A stretch of 38,192 bases of DNA from an uncultured Merdimonas sp. (GTDB lineage Bacteria > Bacillota > Clostridia > Lachnospirales > Lachnospiraceae). The position numbers were made by a program, and so were the translations under genes. The notes below the pieces were generated by a model. That model ran no database searches. It had not been told where the DNA came from and saw only the letters and a list, made by a program, of their open reading frames with translations. Below, piece after piece: positions 3,065 through 17,818 of the stretch; the stretch's first letter is position 1; the number at the start of each line of letters is the position of its first letter. The stretch is taken from contig CALWAZ010000116.1 in NCBI GenBank assembly GCA_944375725.1, positions 1-38,192 on the forward strand, written 5' to 3'.

Positions 3065-3162
3065 GGCGCCGTTCTGCTGTCTTTGCGCCGGGGGGCGATT
3101 CAGTGTTCTGCATCCGGCTCTTTTGGCTGGGCAGAGTAAAAGGTAGAAAATAAAAAAATAAA

Positions 3163-3181
3163 TGTAACTATTGACATTACA
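3163..3181. promoter_or_regulatory. Rrf2-type operator copy A (YwnB-like gene)
   Basis: TGTAACTATTGACATTACA has the form TGTAAY-N7-ATTACA and contains the -35 hexamer of the promoter. It is identical at 17 of 19 positions to the site on the Rrf2 gene promoter at 17800-17818 and overlies the -35 at the same offset. Confidence 0.8.
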
Positions 3182-3199
3182 ACTGAAATGTGATATTTT
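3171..3199 (+). promoter_or_regulatory. Promoter of the YwnB-like gene
   Basis: TTGACA at 3171-3176 and TATTTT at 3194-3199 are separated by 17 bp. The promoter is bracketed by two 19-bp palindromes, one over the -35 and one starting 11 bases after the -10. Confidence 0.8.
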
Positions 3200-3210
3200 A
3201 CGGTGTAAGA

Positions 3211-3229
3211 TGTAATAAAAGAAATTACA
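3211..3229. promoter_or_regulatory. Rrf2-type operator copy B (YwnB-like gene)
   Basis: TGTAATAAAAGAAATTACA repeats the TGTAAT-N7-ATTACA architecture. It lies in the early transcribed region, so binding here together with copy A would block the promoter from both sides. Confidence 0.75.
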
Positions 3230-3251
3230 ACAAAAAAGAGGAGGAACTATC

Positions 3252-3881
3252 ATGAAAACAGCAGTTGTTTGTGCAAACGGAAAAGCAGGGAAGCTGATTG
3301 TAAAGGAAGCAGTGGAAAGAGGTCTGGATGTGACCGCCATAGTAAGAGGGGAGAACCAGAGCGCGGCTCAGAAGGTGATCCGCAAAGATTTGTTTGATCT
3401 GACAGCGGAAGACCTGGAACAGTTCGATGTGGTTGTAGATGCCTTCGGCGCATGGACGAAGGAGACGATCCCGCAGCACTGCACTTCTCTGAAGCATCTC
3501 TGTGATATTCTTTCCGGGACAGAGACGAGACTTCTGGTAGTCGGCGGAGCAGGAAGCCTCTATTTGAATCCGGAGCATACAAGCTATTTGATGGACGGGG
3601 CAGATTTTCCGGAAGCCTTCAAACCTCTTGCTGCGTCCCAGGCAAAATCCCTGGAGGAGCTCCGGGAGAGAAAGGATGTGCGCTGGACCTACATCAGCCC
3701 GGCCGGTGATTTCCAGGCAGAAGGAGAAAGAACCGGCGCCTATATTCTCGGCGGTGAGGAACTGACACTGAATGAGAAGGGCGAGAGCGTCATCAGCTAT
3801 GCGGACTACGCCATTGCAGTAGTAGATGAGATGACCAGCGGAAACCACATTCAGGAAAGAATCAGCGTGGTAAGAAAATAA
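3252..3881 (+). CDS. NAD(P)H-binding SDR/NmrA-like protein (YwnB type)
   Basis: A 209-residue Rossmann-fold protein. The dinucleotide-binding loop is near the N-terminus (VVCANGKAGKL, residues 5-15), followed by a beta-alpha pattern, an LVVGGAGSLY segment near residues 95-105, and a YISPAGDF-like segment around 155. This matches atypical short-chain dehydrogenases of the NAD(P)H-binding/YwnB group, whose substrates are mostly unknown. A GAGGAG ribosome binding site precedes the ATG. In Bacillus subtilis, as I recall, ywnB sits beside ywnA, an Rrf2 regulator; here the Rrf2 gene is 14.6 kb away, but both carry the same operator, so control by it is a strong inference. A redox- or thiol-stress role is plausible but unproven. 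Confidence 0.85.
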   Translation: MKTAVVCANGKAGKLIVKEAVERGLDVTAIVRGENQSAAQKVIRKDLFDLTAEDLEQFDVVVDAFGAWTKETIPQHCTSLKHLCDILSGTETRLLVVGGAGSLYLNPEHTSYLMDGADFPEAFKPLAASQAKSLEELRERKDVRWTYISPAGDFQAEGERTGAYILGGEELTLNEKGESVISYADYAIAVVDEMTSGNHIQERISVVRK

Positions 3882-3960
3882 AGCTGGCTTGTAAGACAGA
3901 CCCAAAAGGATGTAAAATAAACAGAAAATAGAAGTAAATCAGAAAACATAAAAGAACAGA

Positions 3961-3990
3961 AGAAACAGAAAAGAAACAGAAAAGAAACAG
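3961..3990 (+). repeat. Purine-rich 11-bp period repeat
   Basis: AGAAACAG recurs at 3961, 3972 and 3983 with an exact 11-bp period, inside a longer tract (about 3910-3990) almost free of T. It ends where the coding remnant of the next gene becomes recognisable. Confidence 0.7.
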
Positions 3991-4071
3991 GGCGGGGCGG
4001 TTTCCATCCGGAGAAAGGCAGTCTGCATCGGCTCTGAGAAGCTGGAGGAGGTCTTCCGGGAGAATCCCTAC

Positions 4072-4401
4072 ATGGCAGAAATCTATCCGCAGGAGGAGAG
4101 CCGGACGGCTCTGGAGGTGTTCCGCGTGGCAGAGGGAAGCGGTGAATACTTTGACTTGTCGGTAAAACCCATTTACCGGGACACCTTCATCCTGGGCAGA
4201 GGGCAGAAGAAGGAAGAACCGGGCGGATACTTTATTACGAAAAAGTGCAGAGGCTGCGGGCTCTGCGAGGCAAAATGTCCGCAGAAATGTATTGATACCA
4301 CAGGGGAGCCCTGGGTGATTCACCAGGAAAACTGCCTGCACTGCGGAAACTGTATGGAGGCCTGCCCTTATGGCGCAGTGGAAAGAAGAGCAGCGCAGTA
4401 A
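4072..4401 (+). CDS. 4Fe-4S ferredoxin-domain protein, N-terminally truncated PNPOx fusion
   Basis: The C-terminal half carries two clear 4Fe-4S motifs, CRGCGLCEAKCP and CLHCGNCMEACP, each CxxCxxCxxxCP, so it should bind two clusters. The first 50 residues, and about 25 more codons readable in frame upstream of 4072 without any start codon, resemble the C-terminal part of pyridoxamine-phosphate-oxidase-like flavin proteins (FRENP..AEIYP, then ALEVFRVAEGSGEYFDLS). Full-length PNPOx-ferredoxin fusions of about 200 residues are known in Clostridia, so the flavin-binding N-terminus appears to be missing, replaced by the purine-rich repeat tract. Only a weak GGGAG lies before the ATG. It could be a working ferredoxin or a 5'-deleted pseudogene. 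It lies 50 bases upstream of the sirtuin gene on the same strand. Confidence 0.6.
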   Translation: MAEIYPQEESRTALEVFRVAEGSGEYFDLSVKPIYRDTFILGRGQKKEEPGGYFITKKCRGCGLCEAKCPQKCIDTTGEPWVIHQENCLHCGNCMEACPYGAVERRAAQ

Positions 4402-4451
4402 AACAGGACAGTGAGACAGGAGAGCAGGGCAGAAGAAGGAAGGAAAAGACC

Positions 4452-5489
4452 ATGGCAATCCAGATATTAAGCAGAGAAAAGAAGAGTGAAAAAGTGGATT
4501 TTTCGCAGTTTTTGAGCGGTGTGCCTGCGGGAGATTATGTATTTCAGAGCACATCCTATGAGCAGCAGATCCGGGAAGCGGCACAGCTTCTGGAGAGGGC
4601 GGACGCGGTCCTGATCGGAGCCGGAGCAGGGCTTTCGACGGCAGCAGGGCTGAACTACGGAGGAAAGCGGTTTACGGACAATTTCCGTGAATTTATTGAG
4701 AAATACGGTTCCGCCTATATGACAGATATGTACAGCGCAGGCTTCTATCCGTTCCCCTCTGAGGAGGCAAAGTGGGGATACTGGTCAAAGCATGCCTGGC
4801 TGAACCGGGTGGAGCCTCCTGCCATGCCCCTTTATCAGACAGTTTATGAGCTTGTGAAGGAAAAGCCGCACTTTGTCCTGACGACCAACGTGGACCATCA
4901 GTTCTGGAAAGCAGGGTTTGCGGATGAGAATATCTTTGCGACCCAGGGAGATTACGGGGAGATCCAGTGCGCAAGGGGCTGTCACGATAAGGTCTACGAC
5001 GGAATCGGACTGTTTCACCAGATGAATCTGGCGCGGAAAGACTGTCTGGTTCCCACGGAGCTTGTTCCCCGCTGTCCGGTCTGCGGAGGAAAGATGGCGA
5101 TGCACCTGCGCTGTGACCAGTATTTTGTGGAGGATGAGCACTGGAATGAAGCGGCGGCCCGCTATGGCGTGTTCTTAAAAGAGCACAAGGCAGACAAAGT
5201 AGTTCTCCTGGAGCTGGGTGTGGGCTTCAACACGCCGACAATTATCCGCTTCCCGTTTGAACAGATGGTCCGGGAGAACCGGGACTGGACGCTGGTCCGC
5301 CTGAATCTGAACGAGGCGGTCGTGCCGGAGAGCTTTGGCAGCCGTGCCGTGGGCATCAACGACGATATTGCCAGAAGCCTGGAGGATATTCGAAGAGAAA
5401 CAGGCGTGGCAGAAGAAAAGGAAAAGAAAGAGAACGCAGGCGCGGAAAGCTTAAGCATAGAAAAGGCAGGCGAAAAAGATGAAGAATAA
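4452..5489 (+). CDS. Class M sirtuin (SirTM), probable protein ADP-ribosyltransferase
   Basis: A 345-residue Sir2-fold NAD-dependent enzyme. The nucleotide loop is GAGAGLSTAAGLNYGG (from G56), unlike the GAGIS..GIPDFRG of deacylases. The core NID-like motif is TTNVDHQF with N146, and the residue normally the catalytic histidine is Q165 (ATQGD), 19 residues later. As I recall, this Asn/Gln pair with this spacing defines SirTM enzymes of Streptococcus pyogenes and Staphylococcus aureus, which ADP-ribosylate a lipoylated GcvH-like protein. Four cysteines (C173, C177, C208, C211) form the structural zinc site. The last 25 residues are a charged low-complexity tail. It overlaps the macrodomain gene by 11 bases, which fits a writer/eraser pair. 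No gcvH-like or lipoate ligase gene is nearby, so the target is unknown. Confidence 0.88.
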   Translation: MAIQILSREKKSEKVDFSQFLSGVPAGDYVFQSTSYEQQIREAAQLLERADAVLIGAGAGLSTAAGLNYGGKRFTDNFREFIEKYGSAYMTDMYSAGFYPFPSEEAKWGYWSKHAWLNRVEPPAMPLYQTVYELVKEKPHFVLTTNVDHQFWKAGFADENIFATQGDYGEIQCARGCHDKVYDGIGLFHQMNLARKDCLVPTELVPRCPVCGGKMAMHLRCDQYFVEDEHWNEAAARYGVFLKEHKADKVVLLELGVGFNTPTIIRFPFEQMVRENRDWTLVRLNLNEAVVPESFGSRAVGINDDIARSLEDIRRETGVAEEKEKKENAGAESLSIEKAGEKDEE

Positions 5490-6270
5490 AACCCAGGAAG
5501 AAAGAAGAATCTGGCTGATCCGGCAGCTTCAGAAGGAAATGCCCCAGTATCAGGAGCTTGCAGTTCCGAAAGGGGAGGAAGAGCAGTGGAGACTCTTGCG
5601 TTCCCTGTTCAATGTACGGCCGCCCTATCCGGCGTCGGAGGAATTTCTGAAGGTCCAGGACGCATATCTCACAGAAATGGTCCGGGAGAGAGGCATCGTG
5701 GACGGAGAAGCGCTGCCTGCGGTCCAAAAGAACGACAGACTCTCTCTCTGGCAGGGAGATATCACAAGACTTCGCTGCGACGCCATCGTAAATGCGGCCA
5801 ACAGCGCCCTGCTCGGGTGCTGGCAGCCCTGCCATTCCTGCATCGATAACATCATTCACTCACTTTCCGGCGTCCAGCTTCGGATCAAGTGCAATGAGAT
5901 TATGCAGGCCCAGGGGCATGAGGAAGAGACCGGAAAGGCAAAGATTACGCCTGCTTATAATCTGCCCTGCAGATATGTCCTGCATACGGTGGGGCCGATC
6001 ATCTCAGGACCTCTGCGGAAGAAGGACTGTGAGCTTCTGGCAGACTGCTATCGGTCCTGTCTGGAACTTGCGGCGCAAAACGGACTGAAATCCGTGGCCT
6101 TCTGCTGCATTTCCACGGGAGTCTTCCATTTTCCGCAGGAGAAGGCGGCAGAGATTGCAGTGGAGACGGTGGAACATTTTTTGAAAAAAGAGAACTCTGT
6201 GCAGAAGGTGATTTTCAATGTGTTTACGGACAGAGACCTTGAGATTTACCGTGGTCTGCTGGAAGGCTGA
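5479..6270 (+). CDS. Zinc-dependent macrodomain ADP-ribosyl hydrolase
   Basis: A 263-residue protein with a helical N-terminal extension (about 1-85) and a macrodomain (about 86-260). The ADP-ribose pocket signatures are visible: WQGDITRLRCDAIVNAANS (residues 91-109) and the glycine-rich loop CISTGVFHFP (210-219). Between them, LLGCWQPCHSCIDN supplies the Cys-His-Cys cluster (probably C114, H119, C121) typical of zinc-containing macrodomains, which as I recall are found with SirTM sirtuins and reverse their modification. The start overlaps the sirtuin stop by 11 bases, implying translational coupling. The likely reaction is removal of ADP-ribose from the protein modified by the upstream sirtuin. 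A terminator follows 38 bases after the stop. Confidence 0.9.
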   Translation: MKNKTQEERRIWLIRQLQKEMPQYQELAVPKGEEEQWRLLRSLFNVRPPYPASEEFLKVQDAYLTEMVRERGIVDGEALPAVQKNDRLSLWQGDITRLRCDAIVNAANSALLGCWQPCHSCIDNIIHSLSGVQLRIKCNEIMQAQGHEEETGKAKITPAYNLPCRYVLHTVGPIISGPLRKKDCELLADCYRSCLELAAQNGLKSVAFCCISTGVFHFPQEKAAEIAVETVEHFLKKENSVQKVIFNVFTDRDLEIYRGLLEG

Positions 6271-6307
6271 TACCGGCTCCTGATATGTGGGAGCTTGGTG
6301 GAAAAAG

Positions 6308-6354
6308 AAGGGTATATAGAAGCTGTAGAAAGCTTCTGTATACCCTTTTATTTT
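6308..6354. terminator. Bidirectional terminator between macrodomain and LacI genes
   Basis: A long stem (AAGGGTATA.AGAAGCT with AGCTTCT.TATACCCTT) with a short GTAGAA loop is followed by TTTTATTTT on the plus strand and by CTTTTTC on the minus strand. It sits between convergent genes. Confidence 0.85.
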
Positions 6355-6429
6355 GGGCGTTGTACAACATATGTTATTTGCTTAGCGGTCTGCAAAGAAT
6401 ATAACAAAATGTTTCCGAAAACAGCATAT

Positions 6430-7487
6430 CTACCACTCTGCCGGAATGTAATCTGAACGGCTGGATTTATCGGTTGACTGGCGGATAACAAGATGATTTT
6501 CTAGTTCCAGTCTTTTTATGGAGCCAATACGGCGGCTTTCCAGCTGTTCCAGAAGGGCAGTCATAGCCTCCTGACCCAGCAGATTTTTGCGGATATGGAC
6601 TGTGGAAAGGGGAGGTTCCACAATGGTGTCGATGAAGACGTCATCGCAGCCGATAACTTTTACATCCTTCGGAATTCGTTTGTTTGCCTGCTTCAGAGCC
6701 ATGCAGGCTCCGATAGCCATCTGATCATTGGCGGCAAATACCCCATCGATATCCGGATTCCAGTTCAGAAGATCATTCATAGCCTTATACCCGCTCACAT
6801 GGCTGTAATCCCCGTAGGCAATCAGATGTTCCCGGATAGAAATTTCTGCTTTTGTAAGAGCGTCTTTATAGCCGTTCATTCGATCCTGAACGATTTCGGC
6901 TTCAATAGGCCCTGTAATATGGCCAATAACTCTGCAGCCCATATCAAGAAGATGCTGGGTTGCTTTTTGCCCGACGCTGCGCATATTGGTGTAGACCGAA
7001 TCGATCCCATAGCTGCTCAGATCGCGTTCTATACTGACAAGGCAGATCTGACGGTGGGAGGAACGGATTAACTCAAATAAATGATTTACAAAATATGGAA
7101 TTTCGGGGGGGGGGTGGAGGTACTGAAGATAATGCCGTCGATTTGAGAACAAATCAGACTTTCAAAAATTCCCCATTCTTTTTCCGAATTGCTGTTTGTA
7201 TCATACAATACAAGCTCGTAGCCCTGTTCTTCGGCTATCTGCCGTATGGGCTTGATGACATAAGGATAAAAAAGTCCGCAGAGATCATCTACGATCATAC
7301 CGATTCTTTTTGGCTGGCGGTTCTTTATCACTTTTGAGACATAGTTCGTCTTATAATCCAGTTCTTTTATCGCGTCATTTACTTTCTGCACAGTGGCGGG
7401 AGCCACATTCCCTTTATTATTGATAACGTTTGAGACAGTAGAAATTGCGACACCGGCCCGTTTTGCCACATCTTTGATGGTTGACAT
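6430..7487 (-). pseudogene. LacI-family sugar-operon regulator, frameshifted at a C10 run
   Basis: Read from 7487 leftwards, the first about 128 residues are a typical LacI start (TIKDVAKRAGVAISTVSNVINN helix-turn-helix) and the first strands of the sugar-binding domain, ending soon after STSTPPP with a premature stop. The remainder of the domain continues in another frame to 6430 (EIPYFVNHLF..., then GCDDVFIDTIVEPPLSTVHI near the end). The break coincides with a run of ten C on the coding strand (plus-strand G7105-7114); eleven (or eight) would restore one continuous reading frame of about 352 residues. This may be a sequencing or assembly error, a true mutation, or a phase-variable switch. 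It is divergent from the sugar operon at 7767 and is the obvious candidate regulator, probably a repressor released by the imported sugar or a phosphorylated intermediate. Confidence 0.85.
7105..7114. repeat. Mononucleotide G10/C10 tract in the LacI-type gene
   Basis: Ten consecutive G on the plus strand, encoding a Pro-Pro-Pro stretch in the minus-strand gene. It is the exact point where the reading frame is lost. Confidence 0.9.
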
Positions 7488-7578
7488 ATCGTATTTCCCG
7501 CTTTCTGAAACATGGAGAATAAAAATTAATAAAAATTTTTATAAAAACTCAGACTCTGTTTTTCGTTGGACAGCTTCA

Positions 7579-7607
7579 ATTTTAGATAAAATGCACAAAA
7601 AAGTCAA
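7579..7607 (-). promoter_or_regulatory. Promoter of the LacI-type gene
   Basis: On the minus strand TTGACT (7602-7607) and TAAAAT (7579-7584) have a 17-bp spacer. The leader to the ATG at 7487 is about 85 bases and very A/T-rich. The rest of 7488-7766 should hold the promoter of the sugar operon, but I found no convincing -35/-10 pair or LacI operator for it; a palindromic ATTCGAAT at 7613-7620 is the only CG-centred candidate. Confidence 0.65.
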
Positions 7608-7766
7608 GGCTAATTCGAATACACTTGTGATCTGCGTGTCAAAACTGCTGAAAAACAAGAAAAGAAACGGAAATATTGTATAAAAACTTTTTTTTACCTA
7701 CAATTTTTTTATCAAAAGAGAGAACGTACCATGATATGCAGAATATTTCACGAAAGGAGATGTATT

Positions 7767-8498
7767 ATGAAACGTTCGGAACTGAATGCCATTATCGAAA
7801 AAACAATTCGATTTATGGAAGAAGAGAAGAAGCTGCCAATGCCGGATTTCGCTCATTGGGGGCCAAAAGAATGGAAAGAGGCTGGTGAAGACTGTCAGGA
7901 AATCGTAGACAATATGCTGGGCTGGGATATTACGGATTTTGGAAGCGGAGATTTTTCCAAAATCGGCCTGACAATTTTTACATACAGGAACGGAAATTTC
8001 CATAACAAGGAAAAGTATCCGAAGCCATACGCGGAAAAGCTTCTTCTGGTGGATGATGGTCAGATTCTTCCCTATCATTATCACTGGAGCAAGATGGAAG
8101 ATATCATCAATAAGGGAGGCGGAGATCTGGTCATAACCCTCTATAATGCCACGAAAACGGATTTTGAAGATGTAGAAGGAGGAAGAGCAGGAAAGACAGG
8201 AGAATTTGACACGACGCCGGTAACTGTCAGTATGGATGGACGGAGTGTAACCGTACCAGCGGGAGGACAGATTACTTTGAAACCTGGTCAGAGCGTAACC
8301 CTGAAGCCAGGCCAGTACCATACCTGGCAGGGAGTTCCGGGGACCGGACCGGTCATGCTGTTTGAGGTTTCGTCCACGAATGATGATACGATAGACAACA
8401 GATTCCATACGGCGGGTGGGCGCATTCCTGATGTGGAAGAAGATGAGGAAGCAAAGTATCTGATTTTTGCAGACTATAAAAATTATTACCAGGTGTAG
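7767..8498 (+). CDS. D-lyxose/D-mannose-type sugar isomerase
   Basis: A 243-residue cupin-fold enzyme of the D-lyxose ketol-isomerase family, which interconverts D-lyxose with D-xylulose and often D-mannose with D-fructose. The metal site is visible: H104 and H106 in YHYHW, E111, and H185 in GQYHTW, the H-x-H-x4-E...H arrangement of the family. The start at 7767 is chosen over an in-frame ATG at 7731 because AAAGGAGA precedes it by eight bases. It is the first gene of the sugar operon and is divergent from the LacI-type gene. It should act in the cytoplasm on the free sugar brought in by the ABC importer. The exact aldose cannot be read from the sequence. Confidence 0.85.
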   Translation: MKRSELNAIIEKTIRFMEEEKKLPMPDFAHWGPKEWKEAGEDCQEIVDNMLGWDITDFGSGDFSKIGLTIFTYRNGNFHNKEKYPKPYAEKLLLVDDGQILPYHYHWSKMEDIINKGGGDLVITLYNATKTDFEDVEGGRAGKTGEFDTTPVTVSMDGRSVTVPAGGQITLKPGQSVTLKPGQYHTWQGVPGTGPVMLFEVSSTNDDTIDNRFHTAGGRIPDVEEDEEAKYLIFADYKNYYQV

Positions 8499-8559
8499 AA
8501 AAATTTTGTATTTAATCGTGCGGCGCACATTAAATAAATAAAAAATGGAGGTAGAGAAC

Positions 8560-9687
8560 ATGAAAAAGTTACTGGCAATGCTGTTAATCGTTGGAGTCCT
8601 CGGTGCAGCAGTAGCGGGCTGTGGTTCATCTTCAAGTGACACACAGGATACTACAGCAGCCGAAGAGACAACGGAAACAACAGACGACACGACTGAGGCA
8701 GATGATGCGGCGGCAGAAGAGGCAGCTCCTGCTGAGGAAGACACAATGACCATGGATGAAGTAATTGCGGCTGTTCAGGCATCGGAGGTTCCCAGTGATC
8801 TGAAACTCGGCTATGTATGTATGAACCTGGCAAATCCCTGGTTTGTACAGGTGGTAGAAGGATTCGAAGATGCGTGTGCTGAAATGGGACTGTCTACACC
8901 GCTTACCATTGACTCTCAGTACGATGTAAACAAGCAGGTTTCCGATATCGAGACGCTTGTAAATGATAACTATGACGCAATTATGATCTCCCCGATTGAT
9001 CAGAATGCTCTGGAGAGCGTAGTAACTGCGGCAAATGAGGCAGGCATCGTTACAAGCTGTGCAGCTCAGAGTGTAGATATTGCTGATTTCCGTTATATCT
9101 GTGAGGAGTATTCCTACGGACAGGCGATTGGAGAGAATGCAGCAAACTGGATTAATGAGAATCTGGCAGATCAGGAAACTGTTCAGGTGTGCCTGATTAC
9201 ACAGGATAATGTAGAGGATACCATTGCACGTGCAGACGGCATTCAGGATACATTGGAAGAGATGTGCCCGAACGTAGAGATCGTTGCACGCCAGGCAGGT
9301 GACACTCCGGAGCTTGGTCTTCAGATTGTTGAGAGTACTCTCGCAGCTTATCCGGATCTGCAGGTTGTTGTAGCTTCTAATGATTCTGGTGGAATCGGCG
9401 GATACCAGGCAATGGTAAACGCTGGTTATACAGGCGATGATCCGGTAGCAGTCTTCTCTGGAGACGCTACAGATGAAGCTCTGAACGATATGCTTGAGCC
9501 GAACACAATCTATAGAGGAACCGTTGACCTGTTCCCGTACAGATGCGGCTATGAGTCAGCTTATCAGCTGGTTTACTACATCATGAACGGCAAGCCTGCT
9601 GCAACCAAGACAATTGTCTTTGAGCCGGTACTTGTTCCGCTGGCAGACTTACTGGATGGTACATATGAGTACGATCCGGAGTCATAA
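8560..9687 (+). CDS. Sugar ABC transporter substrate-binding lipoprotein
   Basis: A 375-residue lipoprotein. The signal peptide ends in a lipobox, VAGC, with C21 the lipidated cysteine; a T/E/D/A-rich flexible linker follows to about residue 60. The rest is a periplasmic-binding-protein type 1 fold of the ribose/galactose-binding group (LKLGYVCMNLANPWFVQV, then NDNYDAIMISPIDQNAL and ASNDSGGIGGYQAM). A GGAGG ribosome binding site supports the start at 8560; an ATG at 8545 overlaps that site. It binds the unknown sugar outside the membrane and delivers it to the permease encoded downstream. The 112-base gap to the ATPase gene contains a strong hairpin. Confidence 0.92.
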   Translation: MKKLLAMLLIVGVLGAAVAGCGSSSSDTQDTTAAEETTETTDDTTEADDAAAEEAAPAEEDTMTMDEVIAAVQASEVPSDLKLGYVCMNLANPWFVQVVEGFEDACAEMGLSTPLTIDSQYDVNKQVSDIETLVNDNYDAIMISPIDQNALESVVTAANEAGIVTSCAAQSVDIADFRYICEEYSYGQAIGENAANWINENLADQETVQVCLITQDNVEDTIARADGIQDTLEEMCPNVEIVARQAGDTPELGLQIVESTLAAYPDLQVVVASNDSGGIGGYQAMVNAGYTGDDPVAVFSGDATDEALNDMLEPNTIYRGTVDLFPYRCGYESAYQLVYYIMNGKPAATKTIVFEPVLVPLADLLDGTYEYDPES

Positions 9688-9727
9688 AAAATAAAATTGC
9701 GGATTATGAATTGAATCATCAGTCAAA

Positions 9728-9757: not shown

Positions 9758-9799
9758 GTGTGTAAAAGCAGGAAAAGAGCCGTGAACGGAGGAATGAGA

Positions 9800-11278
9800 A
9801 TGGAAGATATAATCTTAAGGGTCCGGAACATAAGCAAGCATTATCCGGGCGTCCGGGCTTTGGACAATGTTTCCTTTGAAGTCAGGCGCGGCGAGGTACA
9901 TGCAATCTGCGGCGAGAATGGAGCTGGAAAATCTACATTGATCAAGATCCTGACAGGAGCGATTCAGCCAACGTCAGGAAGCATTGAGTTTAACGGAAAA
10001 ACATATGAAAAACTGACCCCCCGGCAGGCTATGGAGCTGGGAATCAGTGTTATCTATCAGGAGTTCAGTCTGGTTCCTTATCTGACAATAGCTGAAAATA
10101 TTTTCTATGGCCGGGAGATTAAAAAAGGCATAATACGGGATCTCAAGGGGATGGAAGAAAAGGCAAAAGCACTTTGCCAGGATATGGGGATTGAGCTGGA
10201 CGTAAATAAGAGAGTCTGCGATCTGGGTGTCGCCTATCAGCAGATTGTGGAAATTCTGAAGGCCGTTTCCAGAAACACAGAATTTATTATCATGGACGAA
10301 CCGACAGCACCTCTGACAATTAAGGAGACGGAGGTATTCTTCAGAATTATTGAAAAACTGAAAAAGGAAAATGTAACGATCATCTTTATTTCACACCGGC
10401 TGGAAGAAGTGTTTGAGCTTTGTGACAGAGCAACTGTATTCTGCGACGGCAAATATATCGTCACAAAGGATGTGAAAGATCTGAACCGCAGACAGCTGAT
10501 TTCCTATATGGTAGGACGTGAGCTTTCTGACGATTATCCGGTACCGCACCGGGAATTGGGCGAAACGGTTATGGAGGTCCGAAATCTGACCAATAAGAAT
10601 GTAAAAGATGTAAGTTTTGAAATAAAAAGAGGTGAAATACTGGGATTTGGAGGGCTGGTAGGTGCTGGACGAACGGAACTTGCGAGAGCTCTGTACGGGG
10701 CAGATCCCATTCAGAAAGGAAAAATTACTTTTCACGGACAGGCATATCATCCTAAAACGCCGAGAACGGGATTGAATGCAGGAATCGGCCTGATTCCAGA
10801 AGACAGAAAGGCCCAGGGAGTAGTACTCTCACGACCGATTCGTGAAAATATTGTCTACAGTATTCTGAAACGTATAACCCGGCTGTCCTTTATTAATAAG
10901 AAGAAAGAACAGCAGTATGTAGATAAGTACATAAAAGAGATGAATATCAAAACGCCGAGTCCGGAGCAGCTGGTACAGAATCTGTCGGGAGGAAACCAGC
11001 AGAAGGTGGTTCTGGCAAAGGCTATGGCTACAGACTGTGACATCCTGATTTTTGATGAGCCTACCAGAGGAATTGATGTGGGCGCCAAGCAGGAGATTTA
11101 TGGACTGATGTGCAGACTGGTAGAAGAGGGAAAAAGCATTATCATGATCAGCTCGGAAATGTCAGAGCTTCTCGGAATGTCAGATCGTATTATTGTAATG
11201 AGCAACGGACATATTGCCGGTGAATTGAGCAAAGACGAGTACAGCCAGGCCAGAGTACTGGAGATGGCATCCAGCTAG
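9800..11278 (+). CDS. Sugar ABC transporter ATP-binding protein (RbsA/MglA type)
   Basis: A 492-residue double ATPase, the normal size for RbsA/MglA/XylG proteins. Domain 1 has a full Walker A (GENGAGKST, residues 38-46) and Walker B (FIIMDEPTA) but a relaxed signature (LGVAYQQIVEIL). Domain 2 has a degenerate Walker A (GGLVGAGRTEL), a canonical LSGGNQQK signature near residue 395, and Walker B (ILIFDEPTRGID). This asymmetry is the rule in the family. The start at 9800 gives seven bases to GGAGG (9788-9792); the ATG at 9794 would be too close. It powers the permease encoded next. Confidence 0.93.
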   Translation: MEDIILRVRNISKHYPGVRALDNVSFEVRRGEVHAICGENGAGKSTLIKILTGAIQPTSGSIEFNGKTYEKLTPRQAMELGISVIYQEFSLVPYLTIAENIFYGREIKKGIIRDLKGMEEKAKALCQDMGIELDVNKRVCDLGVAYQQIVEILKAVSRNTEFIIMDEPTAPLTIKETEVFFRIIEKLKKENVTIIFISHRLEEVFELCDRATVFCDGKYIVTKDVKDLNRRQLISYMVGRELSDDYPVPHRELGETVMEVRNLTNKNVKDVSFEIKRGEILGFGGLVGAGRTELARALYGADPIQKGKITFHGQAYHPKTPRTGLNAGIGLIPEDRKAQGVVLSRPIRENIVYSILKRITRLSFINKKKEQQYVDKYIKEMNIKTPSPEQLVQNLSGGNQQKVVLAKAMATDCDILIFDEPTRGIDVGAKQEIYGLMCRLVEEGKSIIMISSEMSELLGMSDRIIVMSNGHIAGELSKDEYSQARVLEMASS

Positions 11279-11308
11279 TTGATATCTTATCTGAAGGAGG
11301 AAAGTAAG

Positions 11309-12277
11309 ATGAAAAATAATAAGAAAGCGGTCATGGTATTGTTGAATTATGGAATTATCGTTGCTTTTCTGGTAATGATTATCATATTTGCGATAGCGTC
11401 GCCAAACTTCCTGACGACAAATACCATGTTTACAATTCTGAGACAGGTGGCCATTACCGGAATTATTTCGATTGGAATGACACTGGTGCTTCTGACAGGA
11501 GGAATCGATCTGTCCGTTGGCTCTATCGCTGGAGTTACCGCGGTTACAGCAGCTATCTGTCTGAAAAATTACAATCTGCCGATTCCTGTAACCTGTATCA
11601 TTGGACTGGTGCTGGCTGTTATTTACGGAGGAATCAGCGGTATCTGCGTAACAAAACTGAATATGCCGCCGTTTATTGCAACACTGGGTGTACAGACATC
11701 TCTCCGCGGCCTGGCCTATATCGTAACAGGCGGTCTGCCGGTATATGGCTTTACAAAGGCGTTCAGCAGTTTTGCGCAAGGGTCTGTCCTGGGAATCCCG
11801 AATCAGGTTATTCTTGCGGTTGTGCTTTTTATCATCTTTATTATTGCGCTGTCAAGAACGACGCTTGGACGGTACCTGTACGGTGTAGGCGGCAATGAGG
11901 AGGCTTCGCGGCTGTCTGGTATCAATGTAACAGCTATCAAAATTATGGCTTACAGTGTCAGTGGATTTCTGGCAGGCGTTGCTGGTTTGGTGCTTCTTTC
12001 CAGAACAGCTTCCGGACAGCCGTCTGCCGGTGATGGATATGAAATGGATGCTATCACAGCAGCTGTTATCGGCGGTGTGTCCTTAAGCGGAGGCGAGGGA
12101 CGGCTTCCTATGGTTATCATCGGAGTTCTGCTGATGGGAACACTTTCCACAGGTATGATCATGTGCGGAATTAATGATTATGTACAGCAGCTTGTAAAAG
12201 GAATCGTGCTGATAGTTGCAGTTGCATATTCTCAGTTCTCTCAGAAAATACGAAACCGGATGGCAGCATCTTCATAG
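11309..12277 (+). CDS. Sugar ABC transporter permease (RbsC type)
   Basis: A 322-residue membrane protein with about nine to ten hydrophobic segments. The LLTGGIDLSVGSIAG motif near residue 65 and the GGVSLSGGEGRLPM motif near residue 255 are characteristic of RbsC/XylH-type permeases (BPD_transp_2). The start at 11309 follows GAAGGAGG (11293-11300). As with many RbsC proteins it should act as a homodimer with the double ATPase encoded immediately upstream. Confidence 0.93.
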   Translation: MKNNKKAVMVLLNYGIIVAFLVMIIIFAIASPNFLTTNTMFTILRQVAITGIISIGMTLVLLTGGIDLSVGSIAGVTAVTAAICLKNYNLPIPVTCIIGLVLAVIYGGISGICVTKLNMPPFIATLGVQTSLRGLAYIVTGGLPVYGFTKAFSSFAQGSVLGIPNQVILAVVLFIIFIIALSRTTLGRYLYGVGGNEEASRLSGINVTAIKIMAYSVSGFLAGVAGLVLLSRTASGQPSAGDGYEMDAITAAVIGGVSLSGGEGRLPMVIIGVLLMGTLSTGMIMCGINDYVQQLVKGIVLIVAVAYSQFSQKIRNRMAASS

Positions 12278-12312
12278 AAAGATCATAAAAATAATATTCG
12301 GAGGAATTTCGG

Positions 12313-13800
12313 ATGGCGGTAGCGGGAATTGATGTTGGAACAACGGGAAGCAAATGCTGTGTGTATGATGAAAACGGAGTATTTCTGACAGAAGTTTTTG
12401 TTCCATATCAGGGGAGAGCTGATGCTGGTACCTATGAACTGGATGCGGAACAGATCTGGGAAGGGACCAGAAAGGCGGTCTGCCAGGTGGCGGCCAGGAT
12501 TTCCGACATCCGCGCCATCGCTGTCACCTCCTTTGGAGAGTCCTTTGTGCTTCTGGATGAAAAAGACGGTCCTCTGACTTCATTGATGCTGTATTCAGAC
12601 TATAGAGGCTATGAACAGAGCCTGGAGCTTCAGCGGGAGTTTGGGGCCAGAGAATTTGGAAGGGTAGAAGGGGTCAAGCCAAGCCAGATGATGAGTGCGT
12701 CCAAGCTGTTGTGGGTGAAAAAAAACTGGCCGAAATTGTTTGCCCGCGCAAAGCGGCTGCTTTTTGGCGCGGATTATATTGTGTACAGGCTCTGCGGAGC
12801 TTTTGTGACGGATTACACCCTGGCAGCCAGGACGGCCATGTTTGATGTGCACCGGATGGATTGGAACGATGACATTCTGAGGTTTATAGGAATAGAGAGG
12901 GAAAGGCTGCCGAGGCCTGTGCCCACCGGCAGTGTTGCAGGGATACTTTCTCCATCAGTGGCTGGGGATTTAGGGCTGCAGCCAGGAGTCAAGATTCTGG
13001 CTGGCTGTCATGATCAGACAGCTTCAGCCATAGGGACGGGAATTCTGAAACCAGGCATGGCTGTGGACTGTATGGGAACGCTGGAATGTATTACCAGTTT
13101 TTATGAGGAATGCCCGGGGTATGAGGCGCTTTATAAAGGGAGTTACGCTATCGTTCCTTATGTGATGCCCGGAGCCTATATTACCTATGCGTTTTCTCTG
13201 ACAGGAGGAGCGCTGCTTCACTGGTGCCGGGAACAGCTTGGCAAAAAGGAGAAAGAAGAAGCGAAAGAGCTTGGAAAGAGCTTTTATGAATATATGGATG
13301 GCCTGGCACCTGACAGGCCCACAGGACTTCTGGTGCTTCCCCATTTTACAGGAGCCGGAACTCCATATATGGACAGTGAGTCCAGAGGAGCCATCATCGG
13401 GCTTTCTACAGAAACCACGTTGGCGGAAATATACCGGGCAATGATGGAGGGGAGTACTTTTGAGATGCGGTACAATCTGGAAAACCTGGAGGCGGGCGGA
13501 ATTCGTGTACGGGAGCTTCGAGCTACCGGCGGAGGATCACAGTCGGTTCAGTGGCTGCAGATGAAGGCAGATATTCTTAATATACCGATTACGACACTGA
13601 AGGACTACCGGGCTGCGGCGATTGGCTGCGCAATGCTGGCGGCCGTGGCACTGAAAGATTTTTCGGACCTGCCGGCAGCCGGGAAAATCTTTGTCAGGCC
13701 TTCAGAGAGTTATTATCCGAGAAAGGAGAAATACGAACAGTATAATCAAGTCTATGAGCGTTACCAGCATCTGTATCAGGCAGTAAAAATGGTGCTGTAA
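12313..13800 (+). CDS. FGGY-family carbohydrate kinase 1
   Basis: A 495-residue kinase of the xylulokinase/gluconokinase superfamily. The N-terminal phosphate loop is AGIDVGTTGSK (residues 4-14); the catalytic aspartate lies in GCHDQ near residue 233; the C-terminal ATP-binding loop is LRATGGGSQS near residue 402. Length and architecture are those of ketose kinases, but substrate specificity cannot be inferred. A GGAGG ribosome binding site precedes the start. It is followed after 28 bases by a paralogue with the same key motifs, so the operon encodes two different sugar kinases. Confidence 0.9.
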   Translation: MAVAGIDVGTTGSKCCVYDENGVFLTEVFVPYQGRADAGTYELDAEQIWEGTRKAVCQVAARISDIRAIAVTSFGESFVLLDEKDGPLTSLMLYSDYRGYEQSLELQREFGAREFGRVEGVKPSQMMSASKLLWVKKNWPKLFARAKRLLFGADYIVYRLCGAFVTDYTLAARTAMFDVHRMDWNDDILRFIGIERERLPRPVPTGSVAGILSPSVAGDLGLQPGVKILAGCHDQTASAIGTGILKPGMAVDCMGTLECITSFYEECPGYEALYKGSYAIVPYVMPGAYITYAFSLTGGALLHWCREQLGKKEKEEAKELGKSFYEYMDGLAPDRPTGLLVLPHFTGAGTPYMDSESRGAIIGLSTETTLAEIYRAMMEGSTFEMRYNLENLEAGGIRVRELRATGGGSQSVQWLQMKADILNIPITTLKDYRAAAIGCAMLAAVALKDFSDLPAAGKIFVRPSESYYPRKEKYEQYNQVYERYQHLYQAVKMVL

Positions 13801-13828
13801 TGAAAAATAGAGCAGAGGAGGAAGGAGA

Positions 13829-15328
13829 ATGGCGATTGCGGGCGTTGATATAGGAACAACAGGCTGTAAATGCACAGTATGTGACGCGGACGGCAGGACG
13901 CTTGGGGAAGCCTACCGGGAATACGATATGCCAAAAGACAGCGAGGGAAAAGAACTGGATGCCTGGGAGGTCTGGCTGAAGGTGAAGGAGGTCATTCGTC
14001 AGGCAGCTGCTCAGGGCATAGAAAAAATAGATGCTATTGGCGTGACTTCTTTTGGTGAGACATCTGTTTTCATAGGTGAAGACGGAAGACCTTTGATGAA
14101 TGCGATGCTTTATGTGGATGCGAGAGGGGAAGAGCAGTGTCGGAGACTGACGGAACACTTTGGCGGAGAATATATTTTCCGTGTGACAGGAGTACGTCCA
14201 CAATCCATGTACAGTCTGCCAAAGCTGATGTGGGTAGCACAGTATCGAAAAGATGTTTTTGAGAAAACCAGACATATCTGTCAGTTTGGAGACTATATTG
14301 TTTATCTGTTGAGCGGAAGATTTCAGATAGACTATTCCCTTGCATGCCGCAGTATGGCTTTTAATTATCGGACGCACAGCTGGGCAGAAGATATTTTAGG
14401 GTTTGCGGGAATTGACAAAAACATGATGTCAGAGCCTGCGCCCACGGGAAGCCCGGCAGGCACGATCCGCGGGGAAGTTGCCAGGGAGCTGGGATTGGCC
14501 GAAGATGTTCTGATAGTATCTGGCTGCCATGATCAGGTGGCGGCTGCAATAGGAACAGGCTGTCTGAAAAAAGGAATGGCTGTGGATGGAACAGGGACAG
14601 TGGAATGTATTACACCTGTGTTTGGAGAGCCAGATTTGCCGGAGGCCATGTATCAGAGCAATTTTGTGATGATTCCCTATCTGGATGAGAAGACTTATGT
14701 GACTTATGCATTTTCATTCAACGGCGGCTCCCTGTTGAAATGGTACCGGGATCATATTGCTGCTTTGGAAACCAGACTGTTTCGTGAACAGGGGAAGAAC
14801 CCTTATGACGGCTTCAATGCACAGATGAGGCAGGGAGAGCCTTCAGGACTTCTGGTGCTGCCCTATTTTTCAGGCTCGGCCACACCTTATATGGATGGCA
14901 GTGTCAGAGGAGCGGTTCTGGGACTGCAGGATACTACAAATTCCATAGATATCTATCAGGGGCTGATGGAGGGTGTAACGTATGAAATGCTGCTGAATCT
15001 GGAATGCCTGAAAGCGGCCGGAATTCAGGTGACAGAACTTCGGGCCACTGGCGGCGGAGCACAGGCCGAAGTCTGGCTGCAGATGAAGGCAGACATTCTG
15101 AATAAAAAGATTGTGACATTGGGAAAAGCACAGTCGGGGACTTTAGGCTGCATTATGATGTCCGGAGTAGCCGGCGGTGTCTATAAAAGCCTGGAAGAGG
15201 CTGCGGAGGTCTATGTAAAGACAGGCAGAGAGTATTATCCAGATCCCGTTCGTCATGAGAGATATATGGAATATTATCAGAAATATAAAAAACTGTATCG
15301 AGCAGTTAAAGAGGTGTGGAGTGCATAG
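13829..15328 (+). CDS. FGGY-family carbohydrate kinase 2, tandem paralogue
   Basis: A 499-residue kinase that aligns end to end with the preceding one: AGVDIGTTGCK at the N-terminus, GCHDQVAAAIGTG near residue 233, and LRATGGGAQAEVWLQMKADILN near residue 410. Sequence divergence elsewhere indicates an old duplication and probably different substrates or phosphorylation positions. A very strong GAGGAGGAAGGAG ribosome binding site precedes the start. Likely partners are the aldolase and dehydrogenase encoded downstream. Confidence 0.9.
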   Translation: MAIAGVDIGTTGCKCTVCDADGRTLGEAYREYDMPKDSEGKELDAWEVWLKVKEVIRQAAAQGIEKIDAIGVTSFGETSVFIGEDGRPLMNAMLYVDARGEEQCRRLTEHFGGEYIFRVTGVRPQSMYSLPKLMWVAQYRKDVFEKTRHICQFGDYIVYLLSGRFQIDYSLACRSMAFNYRTHSWAEDILGFAGIDKNMMSEPAPTGSPAGTIRGEVARELGLAEDVLIVSGCHDQVAAAIGTGCLKKGMAVDGTGTVECITPVFGEPDLPEAMYQSNFVMIPYLDEKTYVTYAFSFNGGSLLKWYRDHIAALETRLFREQGKNPYDGFNAQMRQGEPSGLLVLPYFSGSATPYMDGSVRGAVLGLQDTTNSIDIYQGLMEGVTYEMLLNLECLKAAGIQVTELRATGGGAQAEVWLQMKADILNKKIVTLGKAQSGTLGCIMMSGVAGGVYKSLEEAAEVYVKTGREYYPDPVRHERYMEYYQKYKKLYRAVKEVWSA

Positions 15329-15385
15329 CGGAAGAGCACGGCATAACGAAAAACCCAAAAGTACAGAAAGAGAGGATGAGCAAAA

Positions 15386-16393
15386 ATGCCGATTATCAAA
15401 AAAAGAGAAGAGGTAGTGCGGGTTTATGAGGAGGCGGCAGCAAAGGGCTGGGTAATCCCATGTTTGTGTACGGAAAATCTGACGACTACGGAAGCCATTA
15501 TTTCCGCAGCCAGTGAGTTTGCCAGAGACAATGGCCTGAGAAGTGTTCCGGTGACACTGGCTGCTACAGTCCGCTATGAGCATCGGCCTCAGGCTGTGAA
15601 TTACACACACAGTAGGAACTGGAGGACAGGCCTGGAGCTCTTCCGCCAAGACGCGGAAGTGCTGATGCGGGAAGGCGGAGATTATGAGAACGTGGATTTG
15701 ATGTTGCATCTTGACCATGTACAGCACGATCTGGATGAAGAACTCTGTGAAAGTGACCTGAGCGGCTACTCCTCTATTATGTACGATGCCTCTACGCTGC
15801 CTCTGGAAGATAATATTAAGAAGACAAGAGCGTTTGTTGAGAAAAAAGGACAAGAGATTCTTGTTGAAGGAGCGTGCGATGAAATTATAGACGCGGGAGG
15901 AGAGGCTCATAATGATATTACAACGGCAGATAAATGCAAAGAGTATGTGGACAAAACTGGCGTTGATTTGGTGGTGGCCAATCTGGGCACTGAGCATCGT
16001 GCCTCTGGAAAGGAACTACAGTATCATGGAGATGCAGCTAGGGCAATCAAAGCGGTAATCGGCCCAAAGATTGTGCTGCATGGTACCTCATCTGTTTCTA
16101 ATGAGCAGCTGAAGAAGCTGTTTGATGATGGTGTATGCAAGGTGAATATCTGGACAGCCCTGGAGAGAGATTCTTCTCCGAAGCTGTTTGAATTTCTGGT
16201 AAAAAATGCGTCAAAGGCAGCAGGTCCAGAGATGGTGGAAAAACTGAAAGAAGAGAACTGGCTGACAGACAGATGCGTTACCGGAGAAAAGGAATCGCTG
16301 ACAGCGTTTACGACTGTAGCCCGTCAGGATATCGTTTATCAGGAAATGAAGCGCATTGTGAGAGAATACCTGGATATGTGGTATGTATTGTAA
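15386..16393 (+). CDS. Class II (zinc) ketose-phosphate aldolase, divergent
   Basis: A 335-residue member of the class II fructose-bisphosphate/tagatose-bisphosphate aldolase family. Visible catalytic elements are LDHVQHD with D110 and H111, E161 in LVEGACDE, H204 in GTEHR (usually GTxHG), H232 in VLHGTSS (usually HGGSG), and N254 in CKVNIWT. The altered loops around H204 and H232 and the long insertion before LDH suggest a substrate other than fructose-1,6-bisphosphate. The expected reaction is cleavage of a ketose phosphate to dihydroxyacetone phosphate plus an aldehyde. The GAGAGG ribosome binding site is ten bases upstream. It ends 12 bases before the dehydrogenase gene. Confidence 0.85.
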   Translation: MPIIKKREEVVRVYEEAAAKGWVIPCLCTENLTTTEAIISAASEFARDNGLRSVPVTLAATVRYEHRPQAVNYTHSRNWRTGLELFRQDAEVLMREGGDYENVDLMLHLDHVQHDLDEELCESDLSGYSSIMYDASTLPLEDNIKKTRAFVEKKGQEILVEGACDEIIDAGGEAHNDITTADKCKEYVDKTGVDLVVANLGTEHRASGKELQYHGDAARAIKAVIGPKIVLHGTSSVSNEQLKKLFDDGVCKVNIWTALERDSSPKLFEFLVKNASKAAGPEMVEKLKEENWLTDRCVTGEKESLTAFTTVARQDIVYQEMKRIVREYLDMWYVL

Positions 16394-16405
16394 AGGAAGG
16401 CAGAT

Positions 16406-17623
16406 ATGAAAAAGAAAGCGATTATGTATGGCGCCGGCAATATTGGACGCGGCTTTATAGGAATGCTGTTTTCCCAGTCCGGATATGAGGTAACCTTTGT
16501 AGATGTGGCCGAAATCGTGGTGAATACTCTGAACCGGGATCATGTCTACCCGGTGCGAATCGTGTCCAGCGAAGGGTATGAGGATATAGAAGTACAGAAT
16601 GTCAGCGCAGTGAACGGAAATGATATGGAAGCTGTAGCGGATGAAATTGCCTGCTGTGATATTATGGCGACTGCTGTAGGTGTCAACGTTTTAAAGTTTA
16701 TCATTCCCAATCTGACAGCCGGAATTCGGAAGCGGATGCAGAAAGATGGAGGCCCGCTGAATATTATCATCTGTGAGAATCTGATGGACGCCAATAAGGT
16801 GCTGGAGAGTATGCTGAAAGAACAGATGACAGAGGAAGAAATCGGCTGGTTTGATGAGAATGTGGGCCTTGTGGAAGCGTCGATTGGCCGGATGGTGCCT
16901 GTGCAGACAGAGCAGATGAAAGATGGAAATCCGCTCCGAGTATGTGTGGAGAAATATGGATTTCTTCCTGTAGACAGGGCAGGATTTCGGGGAGAAATTC
17001 CGCAGATTCAGAATATGATTCCTTTTGAGCCTTTTGATTTCTACATAAAAAGAAAGCTTTATCTGCATAATATGGGACATGCGGTATGTGCATACCTGGG
17101 CCTGTATACAGGCCGGCAGTACATTTATGAATCCATAGATGACGCGGAAGTACAGCTTATGGTTACGGAGGCTATGACGGAGAGCACTCTGGCCCTTTCG
17201 AAAAAGTACGGGGTGCCGTCGGAAAGGCTTCTTGAGCATGCAGAGGATCTCCGGATGCGCTTTACAAATCAGGCGCTGCAGGATACCTGTGCCCGAGTAG
17301 GCGGCGATCCGAAGCGGAAGCTTTCTCCAGCTGATAGATTGATTGGGGCTTCACGTCTCTGCATGGAAGAGAACATTTATCCTGCTTTTATCAGTGTAGG
17401 AACCGCAGGAGCTGTATGGAAATATCTAGAAGAGCAGGGAAAAGAGCAGACATTGGAAAACGCAAAGGAAGTTTTGAAAAAAATCTCCGGTTTAAAAGAA
17501 GGAGAGCCCTTGATGGAGCCGGTGATACGGCTTTATGAAATGTATGCGCAAGAACAGAGTGAAAGCGATATTCGGAGGTTGGCGCAGAGATTAAAAGCAG
17601 CTCAGATGGAAGGAATTATATAA
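16406..17623 (+). CDS. Mannitol-1-phosphate 5-dehydrogenase family protein
   Basis: A 405-residue NAD-dependent polyol-phosphate dehydrogenase of the MtlD group. The Rossmann loop is GAGNIGRGFIG (residues 9-19). The middle contains the NxxDN-like segment IICENLMDANKVL and the VGLVEASIGRMVP stretch found in this family; the C-terminal half is the all-helical substrate domain with YLHNMGHAVCAYLG. It is slightly longer than E. coli MtlD (about 382). In the operon it would interconvert an alditol phosphate with a ketose phosphate; mannitol itself is not implied because no mannitol PTS is present. An AAGGAAGG ribosome binding site precedes it and a terminator follows 59 bases after the stop. Confidence 0.85.
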   Translation: MKKKAIMYGAGNIGRGFIGMLFSQSGYEVTFVDVAEIVVNTLNRDHVYPVRIVSSEGYEDIEVQNVSAVNGNDMEAVADEIACCDIMATAVGVNVLKFIIPNLTAGIRKRMQKDGGPLNIIICENLMDANKVLESMLKEQMTEEEIGWFDENVGLVEASIGRMVPVQTEQMKDGNPLRVCVEKYGFLPVDRAGFRGEIPQIQNMIPFEPFDFYIKRKLYLHNMGHAVCAYLGLYTGRQYIYESIDDAEVQLMVTEAMTESTLALSKKYGVPSERLLEHAEDLRMRFTNQALQDTCARVGGDPKRKLSPADRLIGASRLCMEENIYPAFISVGTAGAVWKYLEEQGKEQTLENAKEVLKKISGLKEGEPLMEPVIRLYEMYAQEQSESDIRRLAQRLKAAQMEGII

Positions 17624-17682
17624 AATATTTCTGAACTCTCTTTTGATAAGCGGTACAGACTTAAAAATGTTCAAATGGGTGA

Positions 17683-17719
17683 GGCCCGGAACGCAGTAAT
17701 GCATTCCGGGTCCTTTTCT
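17683..17719 (+). terminator. Terminator of the sugar operon
   Basis: GGCCCGGAA pairs with TTCCGGGTCC (one offset) around a CGCAGTAATGCA loop that itself can pair, and is followed by TTTTCT. Confidence 0.85.
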
Positions 17720-17779
17720 CGGTCAAGGGAGAAACTGTCTTTTTCTGTTCGATTATTCTAATACGATTCTGAAACATAC

Positions 17780-17801
17780 CAGGTATCTGAAAAGATACCT
17801 G
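17780..17801. repeat. Perfect inverted repeat next to the Rrf2 operator
   Basis: CAGGTATCT-GAAA-AGATACCTG, a perfect 9-bp stem with a GAAA tetraloop and no T run. Its last two bases are the first two of the Rrf2-type operator. It may be a second regulatory site or an RNA hairpin. Confidence 0.65.
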
Positions 17802-17818
17802 TAATCATTGACATTACA
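17800..17818. promoter_or_regulatory. Rrf2-type operator on the Rrf2 gene itself
   Basis: TGTAATCATTGACATTACA, a TGTAAT-N7-ATTACA palindrome containing the -35 TTGACA. It matches the copies at 3163-3181 (17 of 19 identical) and 3211-3229 (same half sites). Confidence 0.85.

Follow-up and report, generated by a model that had tools for sequence, protein, structure and literature searches.

A SifR-type operator predicted at two separated promoters of a Merdimonas contig, and its association with sifR and sirtuin–macrodomain genes in Lachnospiraceae

Two promoters 14.6 kb apart on a contig of an uncultured Merdimonas sp. (Lachnospiraceae; CALWAZ010000116.1, 38,192 nucleotides, the whole of which was analysed and is called the window) share one palindromic sequence. 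One promoter precedes the gene for a YwnA-like Rrf2 regulator and the other a ywnB-like gene. We consider it probable that the window's own regulator, a predicted SifR protein, uses the palindromes as its operators, and that they place a unit of ywnB, a SirTM-type sirtuin and a zinc-type macrodomain under a repressor released by quinones. The operator itself is already known; new here are its tracking of sifR in Lachnospiraceae, a predicted second operator at target promoters, SirTM and macrodomain genes in the predicted regulon, the rarity of the operator at SirTM loci of SifR-less genomes, and a probable insertion between regulator and target. The interpretation in a preliminary description of the window stands as regards the common operator, the neighbouring genes of Bacillus and the separation of regulator and target, but not as regards an undescribed recognition site or a broken ywnAB pair.

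Palindromes and repressor in the window

The promoter elements and the regulator gene lie as follows.

3163–3181, + strand: TGTAACTATTGACATTACA, ywnB promoter, predicted SifR operator 1, with the −35 TTGACA (3171–3176) inside it
3194–3199, + strand: TATTTT, −10 hexamer of the ywnB promoter, after a 17-nt spacer from the −35
3211–3229, + strand: TGTAATAAAAGAAATTACA, predicted SifR operator 2 of the ywnB promoter, over the predicted transcription start region
17800–17818, + strand: TGTAATCATTGACATTACA, sifR promoter, its one predicted SifR operator, with the −35 TTGACA (17808–17813) inside it
17831–17836, + strand: TAAAAT, −10 hexamer of the sifR promoter, after a 17-nt spacer from the −35
17867–18295, + strand: sifR, predicted Rrf2 repressor of the YwnA/SifR group, 142 residues from the conserved MQISS start, with HENPNPDC

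A check of the window sequence confirmed all three palindromes where they had been described. TGTAACTATTGACATTACA and TGTAATCATTGACATTACA share 17 of their 19 bases and hold TTGACA from the ninth base, placing the −35 at the same offset in both, and their likeness is owed partly to this common box within the operator. The second ywnB site starts 12 bases past the last base of the −10 and 48 bp from the first, start to start; its description as a third copy just after the −10 was right in position, but fell short of what relatives indicate for it (see below). With up to two mismatches allowed, the window holds 10 matches against 2.03 expected, a count reached in 0 of 100 shuffles, and promoter-like matches as a class occur at about chance frequency in promoter scans of the window.

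The own genome is a draft of 3,021,715 bases in 214 contigs, 85% complete, in which the window is the entire contig C116. The genome scan that had been proposed for TGTAAY-N7-RTTACA returned three exact matches, all in the window contig and confined to these promoters, and none for the reversed-pattern control. The looser core TGTAA-N9-TTACA has three further exact matches (C103, C111 and C112), each within a long open frame. With up to one mismatch allowed, the own genome shows no excess of matches (92 versus 101 for the control), so weaker sites elsewhere in it are indistinguishable from chance. A perfect 9-bp hairpin, CAGGTATCTGAAAAGATACCTG, at 17780–17801 abuts and slightly overlaps the sifR operator.

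The regulator has an Rrf2 domain (PF02082, 118 bits; cut-off 30) and matches the structures 1YLF (E = 1.2e-40) and 1XD7, B. subtilis YwnA (E = 1.6e-29). Its HENPNPDC fits HxxPNPxC, the motif of the YwnA/SifR group (PMC9218516); in an alignment of 10 proteins the Cys-Pro pair is invariant and the complete motif is not. By its Rrf2 domain, the cysteine of this motif and TGTAA-N9-TTACA at target promoters, it is assigned to the SifR/YwnA group. HypR identity was rejected on a score of 61.5 for NCBIfam NF041852, far under the cut-off of 180. The reading frame opens at 17858; we prefer the start at 17867 because the nearest relative found, Lachnoclostridium sp. An138, is without the upstream ATG and most close relatives begin MQISS.

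In Streptococcus pneumoniae, Zhang et al. (2022; PMC9218516) defined the SifR operator as TGTAA-N9-TTACA, from the HypR core TGTAA-x9-TTACA; with the site published for both proteins, the suggestion that it might not be described does not hold. Binding was measured at the catE, ywnB, yhdA, fre and trxB operators, of which catE and ywnB were bound tightest; release by quinones depends on cysteine, and YwnB is a quinone reductase (PMC9218516). The SifR regulon of S. pneumoniae D39 has in common with the window an HxxPNPxC Rrf2 repressor, the operator, a ywnB target and non-adjacent sifR and ywnB genes. HypR of Staphylococcus aureus shares the core operator but, unlike the SifR group, senses hypochlorite via two cysteines (PMC9218516). 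Bacillus subtilis pairs a YwnA-type regulator (1XD7) with a YwnB-type enzyme, as the window does; there they form an operon (PMC9218516), as the preliminary description of ywnA and ywnB as neighbours implied, whereas the window has two promoters. In B. subtilis, ywnA and ywnB RNA climb strongly under allicin (PMC6943732). A SifR-like Rrf2 protein in Lachnospiraceae is mentioned in a 2026 preprint (PMC13404960), the relevant part of which gives no regulon. SifR proteins 65–66% identical to that of the window also occur in records labelled as other phyla (L096, Fibrobacter intestinalis ATCC 43854; L138, a Muribaculaceae metagenome-assembled genome), which may reflect gene transfer or contamination.

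Motif, sifR and second sites across Lachnospiraceae

The exact pattern without the −35 occurs in 226 of 299 genomes of the family, and its control likewise matched often; at this frequency it was rejected as a survey motif in favour of the −35-containing form TGTAAYNNTTGACATTACA, the strict motif. Across 397 Lachnospiraceae genomes this is present in 62, and the reversed pattern has at least one match (G377) among the matches listed. SifR relatives (E ≤ 1e-35) occur in 87 of these genomes and YwnB relatives (E ≤ 1e-60) in 29. Motif and sifR are found together in 54 genomes, the motif alone in 8, sifR alone in 33 and neither in 302. Expressed as frequencies, sifR is present in 54 of 62 motif-positive versus 33 of 335 motif-negative genomes (Fisher p = 7e-35) and ywnB in 8 of 62 versus 21 of 335 (Fisher p = 0.10), in tests over genomes that ignore relatedness. 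The −35-containing operator tracks sifR in Lachnospiraceae; that it belongs to ywnB instead was considered and rejected, the latter association not being significant. Two of the eight motif-only genomes (G335 and G380) have a sifR start that runs off a contig end, which would explain these two.

Conservation upstream of orthologues, one of the comparisons suggested beforehand, is partial for both genes. Of 80 named sifR loci, 44 carry a core within 250 bp upstream of sifR, exact in 35 and with one mismatch in 9; among nine close YwnB loci, both sites are present in five (G000, G010, G014, G022 and G011) and one has too little upstream sequence. The loci of both genes that have no such site are weighed further on. 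Autoregulation of sifR, as predicted from these sites, is not universal among relatives, and at some of the site-less loci sifR comes after a macrodomain gene.

The same comparison identifies the window's third copy as a conserved, predicted second operator. The fetched stretch includes ywnB in 15 of the 80 named sifR loci (40% identity over 120 residues required, which excludes a shorter match in L070), and two sites with up to one mismatch lie upstream of ywnB in 14 of the 15, L110 having one. We then pooled loci fetched for sifR, the motif or SirTM and dropped promoters identical over 100 bp, which left 151 distinct promoters with a strict first site. A second site (up to one mismatch, 36–54 bp away) is present in 102 of the 113 promoters that lead into a gene other than sifR and in 2 of the 38 that lead into sifR, the latter being called by a short peptide pattern. 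Exact second sites number 80 and fall into spacing classes, 43 at 42–43 bp and 29 at 48–49 bp; a base shuffle predicts 0.04 altogether. A 17-nt spacer separates −35 from −10 in 144 of the 151 promoters (spacers of 15–19 searched, ties assigned to 17). We infer from this arrangement that target promoters would be under tight control and sifR under loose autoregulation. In S. pneumoniae one operator per target is described, in the portion of PMC9218516 drawn on here, whereas most target promoters in Lachnospiraceae have two.

Regions fetched by the motif contain 83 strict sites, 58 with a second site and 25 without. The first gene after the 58 two-site promoters, taken as the first recognised module gene and assigned, as across all loci, by tblastn, is SnoaL-like in 14, a cupin in 10, a macrodomain in 8, PNPOx in 7, ywnB in 6, PNPOx-ferredoxin in 5, SirTM in 4, sifR in 2 and another gene in 2. 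More than 2.4 kb of downstream sequence, a cut of our own choosing, is available for 49 of the 58, and 32 of these 49 reach SirTM and/or macrodomain genes (22 both, with 17 reaching neither). Single sites precede sifR in 17 of 25 cases, a module gene in 5 and something else in 3, and SirTM or a macrodomain nevertheless follows further along in 12 of these 25. The predicted regulon therefore often takes in the SirTM sirtuin and the zinc macrodomain. These targets, together with PNPOx, SnoaL-like and cupin genes, are unlike those of S. pneumoniae, although relatives of catE, yhdA, fre and piu were not searched for. A two-site promoter also stands ahead of a 263-residue protein in L098, L101 and L112, the L112 copy of which has no Pfam match at E 0.001. 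G053 has four ywnB-like genes (L060, L063, L064 and L065), three on one contig, with no SifR site within 300 bp upstream.

The target unit and SirTM loci with and without sifR

Downstream of the ywnB promoter the window reads as follows.

3252–3881, + strand: ywnB-like NAD(P)H-binding protein (PF13460; 4R01, S. pneumoniae YwnB, E = 1.4e-75)
4072–4401, + strand: PNPOx-ferredoxin fusion gene, a remnant that keeps the C-terminal part and its 4Fe-4S motifs (Fer4 matches) but has no N-terminal part
4452–5489, + strand: SirTM-type (class M) sirtuin, predicted protein ADP-ribosyltransferase (5A3A, E = 1.3e-54)
5479–6270, + strand: zinc-type macrodomain, predicted protein-ADP-ribose hydrolase (NF003163, 370.7 bits, cut-off 272; 5KIV, E = 9.3e-84)

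YwnB aligns over its full length with 4R01 (residues 1–209) and is a predicted quinone reductase by analogy with its S. pneumoniae relative. The PNPOx-ferredoxin remnant is 64% identical to residues 79–209 of a 210-residue relative, with likeness beginning near 3997. The sirtuin, which has no Pfam family at E 0.001, aligns with 5A3A (“SIR2 family protein”), which we take to be the S. pyogenes SirTM structure, and has a QG motif in place of the catalytic His. Its open reading frame overlaps that of the macrodomain by 11 bp, and the two form a predicted writer/eraser pair for ADP-ribosylation. A scan of the window found no terminator-like site on the + strand between 3881 and 6270, and the target unit probably extends beyond ywnB to the SirTM and macrodomain genes.

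Under the mechanism that we propose, a reduced SifR dimer would bind TGTAA-N9-TTACA. At its own promoter it would cover the −35 only, so that autorepression would be loose; on the ywnB promoter it would occupy two sites, one over the −35 and one just past the −10 at the start region, and so repress tightly an operon of ywnB, the PNPOx-ferredoxin remnant, SirTM and the zinc macrodomain, in that order. Electrophiles such as quinones would modify the conserved cysteine of HxxPNPxC and take SifR off the DNA, whereupon the quinone reductase and the ADP-ribosylation writer and eraser would be made. Operator binding, cysteine–quinone release and YwnB activity are carried over from the S. pneumoniae literature; SifR binding and induction in this species, the co-transcription of SirTM and macrodomain with ywnB and the tighter effect of two sites are what we would expect here. 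What the present analysis observes is the sequences, their conservation, their spacing and the association of genes.

In S. aureus and S. pyogenes, lipoylated GcvH-L gains and loses ADP-ribose through the action of SirTM/zinc-macrodomain pairs, and such pairs are linked to oxidative stress (PMC4518038, PMC11490716); outside the extended operon, their targets and physiological role were stated to be open in 2024 (PMC11490716). The pair is adjacent in these operons (Rack et al. 2015, PMC4518038; PMC11490716), as it is in the window. The window's pair is tied to a repressor class, and the words ‘repressor’ and ‘Rrf2’ are absent from the main text of both papers. In full-text literature, most subscription literature lying outside it, we found no regulatory link between SirTM and Rrf2 or among Rrf2, macrodomain and sirtuin; the only co-mention is in PMC12710355, where HypR and the S. 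aureus sirTM operon share a paragraph on ClpX without a regulatory link and Rrf2 appears, in the part concerned, just in a reference title.

The own genome, 85% complete, gave no PF01597 (GCV_H) match, and control genomes did give matches. Nor was the combination of GcvH-L and LplA2 that marks the extended SirTM operon found in it; one LplA/LipB/BPL-family match lies on a separate contig, C133. With no GcvH relative found, a target other than GcvH-L is likely here and the known SirTM substrate is an unlikely answer: either the substrate must differ from GcvH-L, or GcvH-L was missed in the draft.

SirTM relatives (E ≤ 1e-40) occur in 175 of 373 genomes. We compared one SirTM locus per genome, from genomes among the matches listed, the loci without sifR being those of the first 47 SifR-less genomes in list order. 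In the approximately 4 kb upstream of SirTM, a dual operator with −35 is present at 24 of the 53 loci whose genome has a SifR match versus 1 of the 47 whose genome has none (p = 2.5e-7), and any exact core at 36 of 53 versus 3 of 47 (p = 1.1e-10). For one SifR genome (G387), the best locus being at a contig end, we used a second SirTM locus already known to carry the operator; leaving it out gives 23 of 52 and 35 of 52. Because ywnB, PNPOx, PNPOx-ferredoxin, SnoaL-like and macrodomain genes adjoin SirTM in both groups, the operator goes with the regulator and not with the genes.

At 19 of 46 loci without a SifR match and 5 of 49 with one, the first module gene has a divergently oriented HxlR gene (PF01638) no more than 520 bp away. 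These 95 loci, from which five at contig ends had been dropped, divide into 1 with operator and HxlR, 31 with the operator alone, 23 with HxlR alone and 40 with neither (p = 3e-4), under a gene-chain rule that misses operators further upstream (as in L281). A block similar to GGTAACTAYRGCACAATAAAGTGCTTACTTTAC, as read by eye, recurs in the upstream sequence of many of these HxlR loci. Proteins of the YodB/CatR type in the HxlR family are quinone sensors in Bacillus. HxlR in SifR-less loci suggests sensor replacement, a suggestion limited by the 40 loci that carry neither element. HxlR together with macrodomain gave no match in the same full-text literature, most subscription literature again lying outside. 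HxlR with the conserved block before ywnB, macrodomain or SirTM genes is seen, for example, in L341, L343, L344, L346, L347, L351, L355, L364 and L368.

We lean, by a little, towards a wider reading in which gut Lachnospiraceae couple the sensing of electrophiles to the ADP-ribosylation of proteins. The redox module, led by YwnB, PNPOx or a SnoaL-like protein and continuing with PNPOx-ferredoxin, SirTM and zinc macrodomain, would be held by interchangeable thiol-type repressors: in some lineages SifR with a two-operator promoter, in others an HxlR/DUF24 protein that has a conserved upstream sequence of its own. Quinones or similar electrophiles would be the trigger, and the target would not be GcvH-L. 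Two unrelated sensors would thereby have traded places over one effector module, and a role for SifR in gut anaerobes is indicated as possible. A repressor class of known chemistry would offer a direct inducer (quinones) and a genetic handle (sifR) for the role of SirTM and the zinc macrodomain.

Rival readings and the separation of regulator and target

Several findings weigh against assigning the palindromes and the unit to SifR. The strict motif is missing in 33 of the 87 genomes with sifR and a SifR match in 8 of the 62 with the motif; at 36 of the 80 named sifR loci the 250 bp upstream of sifR hold no site, even with one mismatch allowed; and an exact core is missing from the approximately 4 kb upstream at 17 of the 53 SirTM loci from genomes with sifR. 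Sites are absent in three of nine close YwnB loci (G002, G007 and G031), of which the G031 genome has SifR, and G014, an 82%-complete draft, has both sites yet just a 39% identical SifR-like protein. The SifR regulon of Lachnospiraceae is predicted from sequence, operator binding and release by quinones having been described in S. pneumoniae. A gap of 570 bp separates ywnB from SirTM and has a weak promoter-like match at 3889, at chance level, so SirTM might own a separate promoter. Finally, a SifR-like paralogue in the own genome (C28:21490–21903, L018; 37% identity, CPVGRN retained) might read the same site.

That this paralogue or another Rrf2 protein is the main binder, or that both bind, we regard as unlikely. 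The paralogue keeps the Cys-Pro-Val-Gly motif in a similar context, HEDPSPYC, and in G013 the gene for a relative of 39% identity is itself preceded by two exact cores; but within 300 bp the paralogue's promoter has no core at up to two mismatches where that of sifR has an exact one, and the motif tracks close SifR orthologues. Somewhat less unlikely, though still improbable, is that SifR controls ywnB only, with SirTM and the macrodomain merely nearby and separately transcribed. The gap with its gene remnant and the promoter-like match (3889–3918, 9 of 12) speak for it, but that match is at chance level, the + strand stretch has no terminator-like site, and in relatives the two-site promoter often stands directly before macrodomain or SirTM. 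We give almost no credence to the idea that the sites are alike just because A/T-rich promoters share a −35 box, without any regulator in common. TTGACA does lie within both best-matching sites, but the outer halves are exact, the motif is unique in the genome with a clean control and co-occurs with sifR, and the second site recurs at fixed spacing without TTGACA. Control of the whole unit by the window's own SifR remains our preferred reading.

The following feature accounts for the distance between sifR and its predicted target.

6271–17780, strand not assigned: sugar-use cluster between macrodomain and sifR, absent here in An138; probable insertion in this lineage

An138 (G010, L066) has SifR 96% and YwnB 100% identical to those of the window; window positions 192–4217, 4424–6171 and 17780–22243 align within about 11 kb of its sequence, in which ywnB and sifR are about 2.6 kb apart. 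In the same-genus locus L023, 47 bp separate sifR from a macrodomain gene upstream, and 11 of the 80 named sifR loci have a macrodomain gene no more than 200 bp upstream, a neighbourhood not retained in all relatives. From this adjacency and the An138 alignment, the 11.5 kb cluster most likely entered this lineage between macrodomain and sifR, which would put the two promoters 14.6 kb apart. Regulator and target have therefore separated, as had been proposed, but what looks to have been parted is a macrodomain–sifR neighbourhood and not a ywnAB pair. GC content is 46.5% in the cluster and 49–53% in the flanks, except for the ywnB promoter region at 41%. Judged by eye from its open reading frames, the cluster encodes a LacI-type regulator, a sugar-isomerase-like protein, a sugar ATP-binding cassette transporter, two sugar kinases and a class II aldolase; it also has a mannitol-type dehydrogenase, the sole member put through a family search. 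Two frames on the minus strand, 6430–7152 and 7086–7487, divide the LacI-type gene between them.

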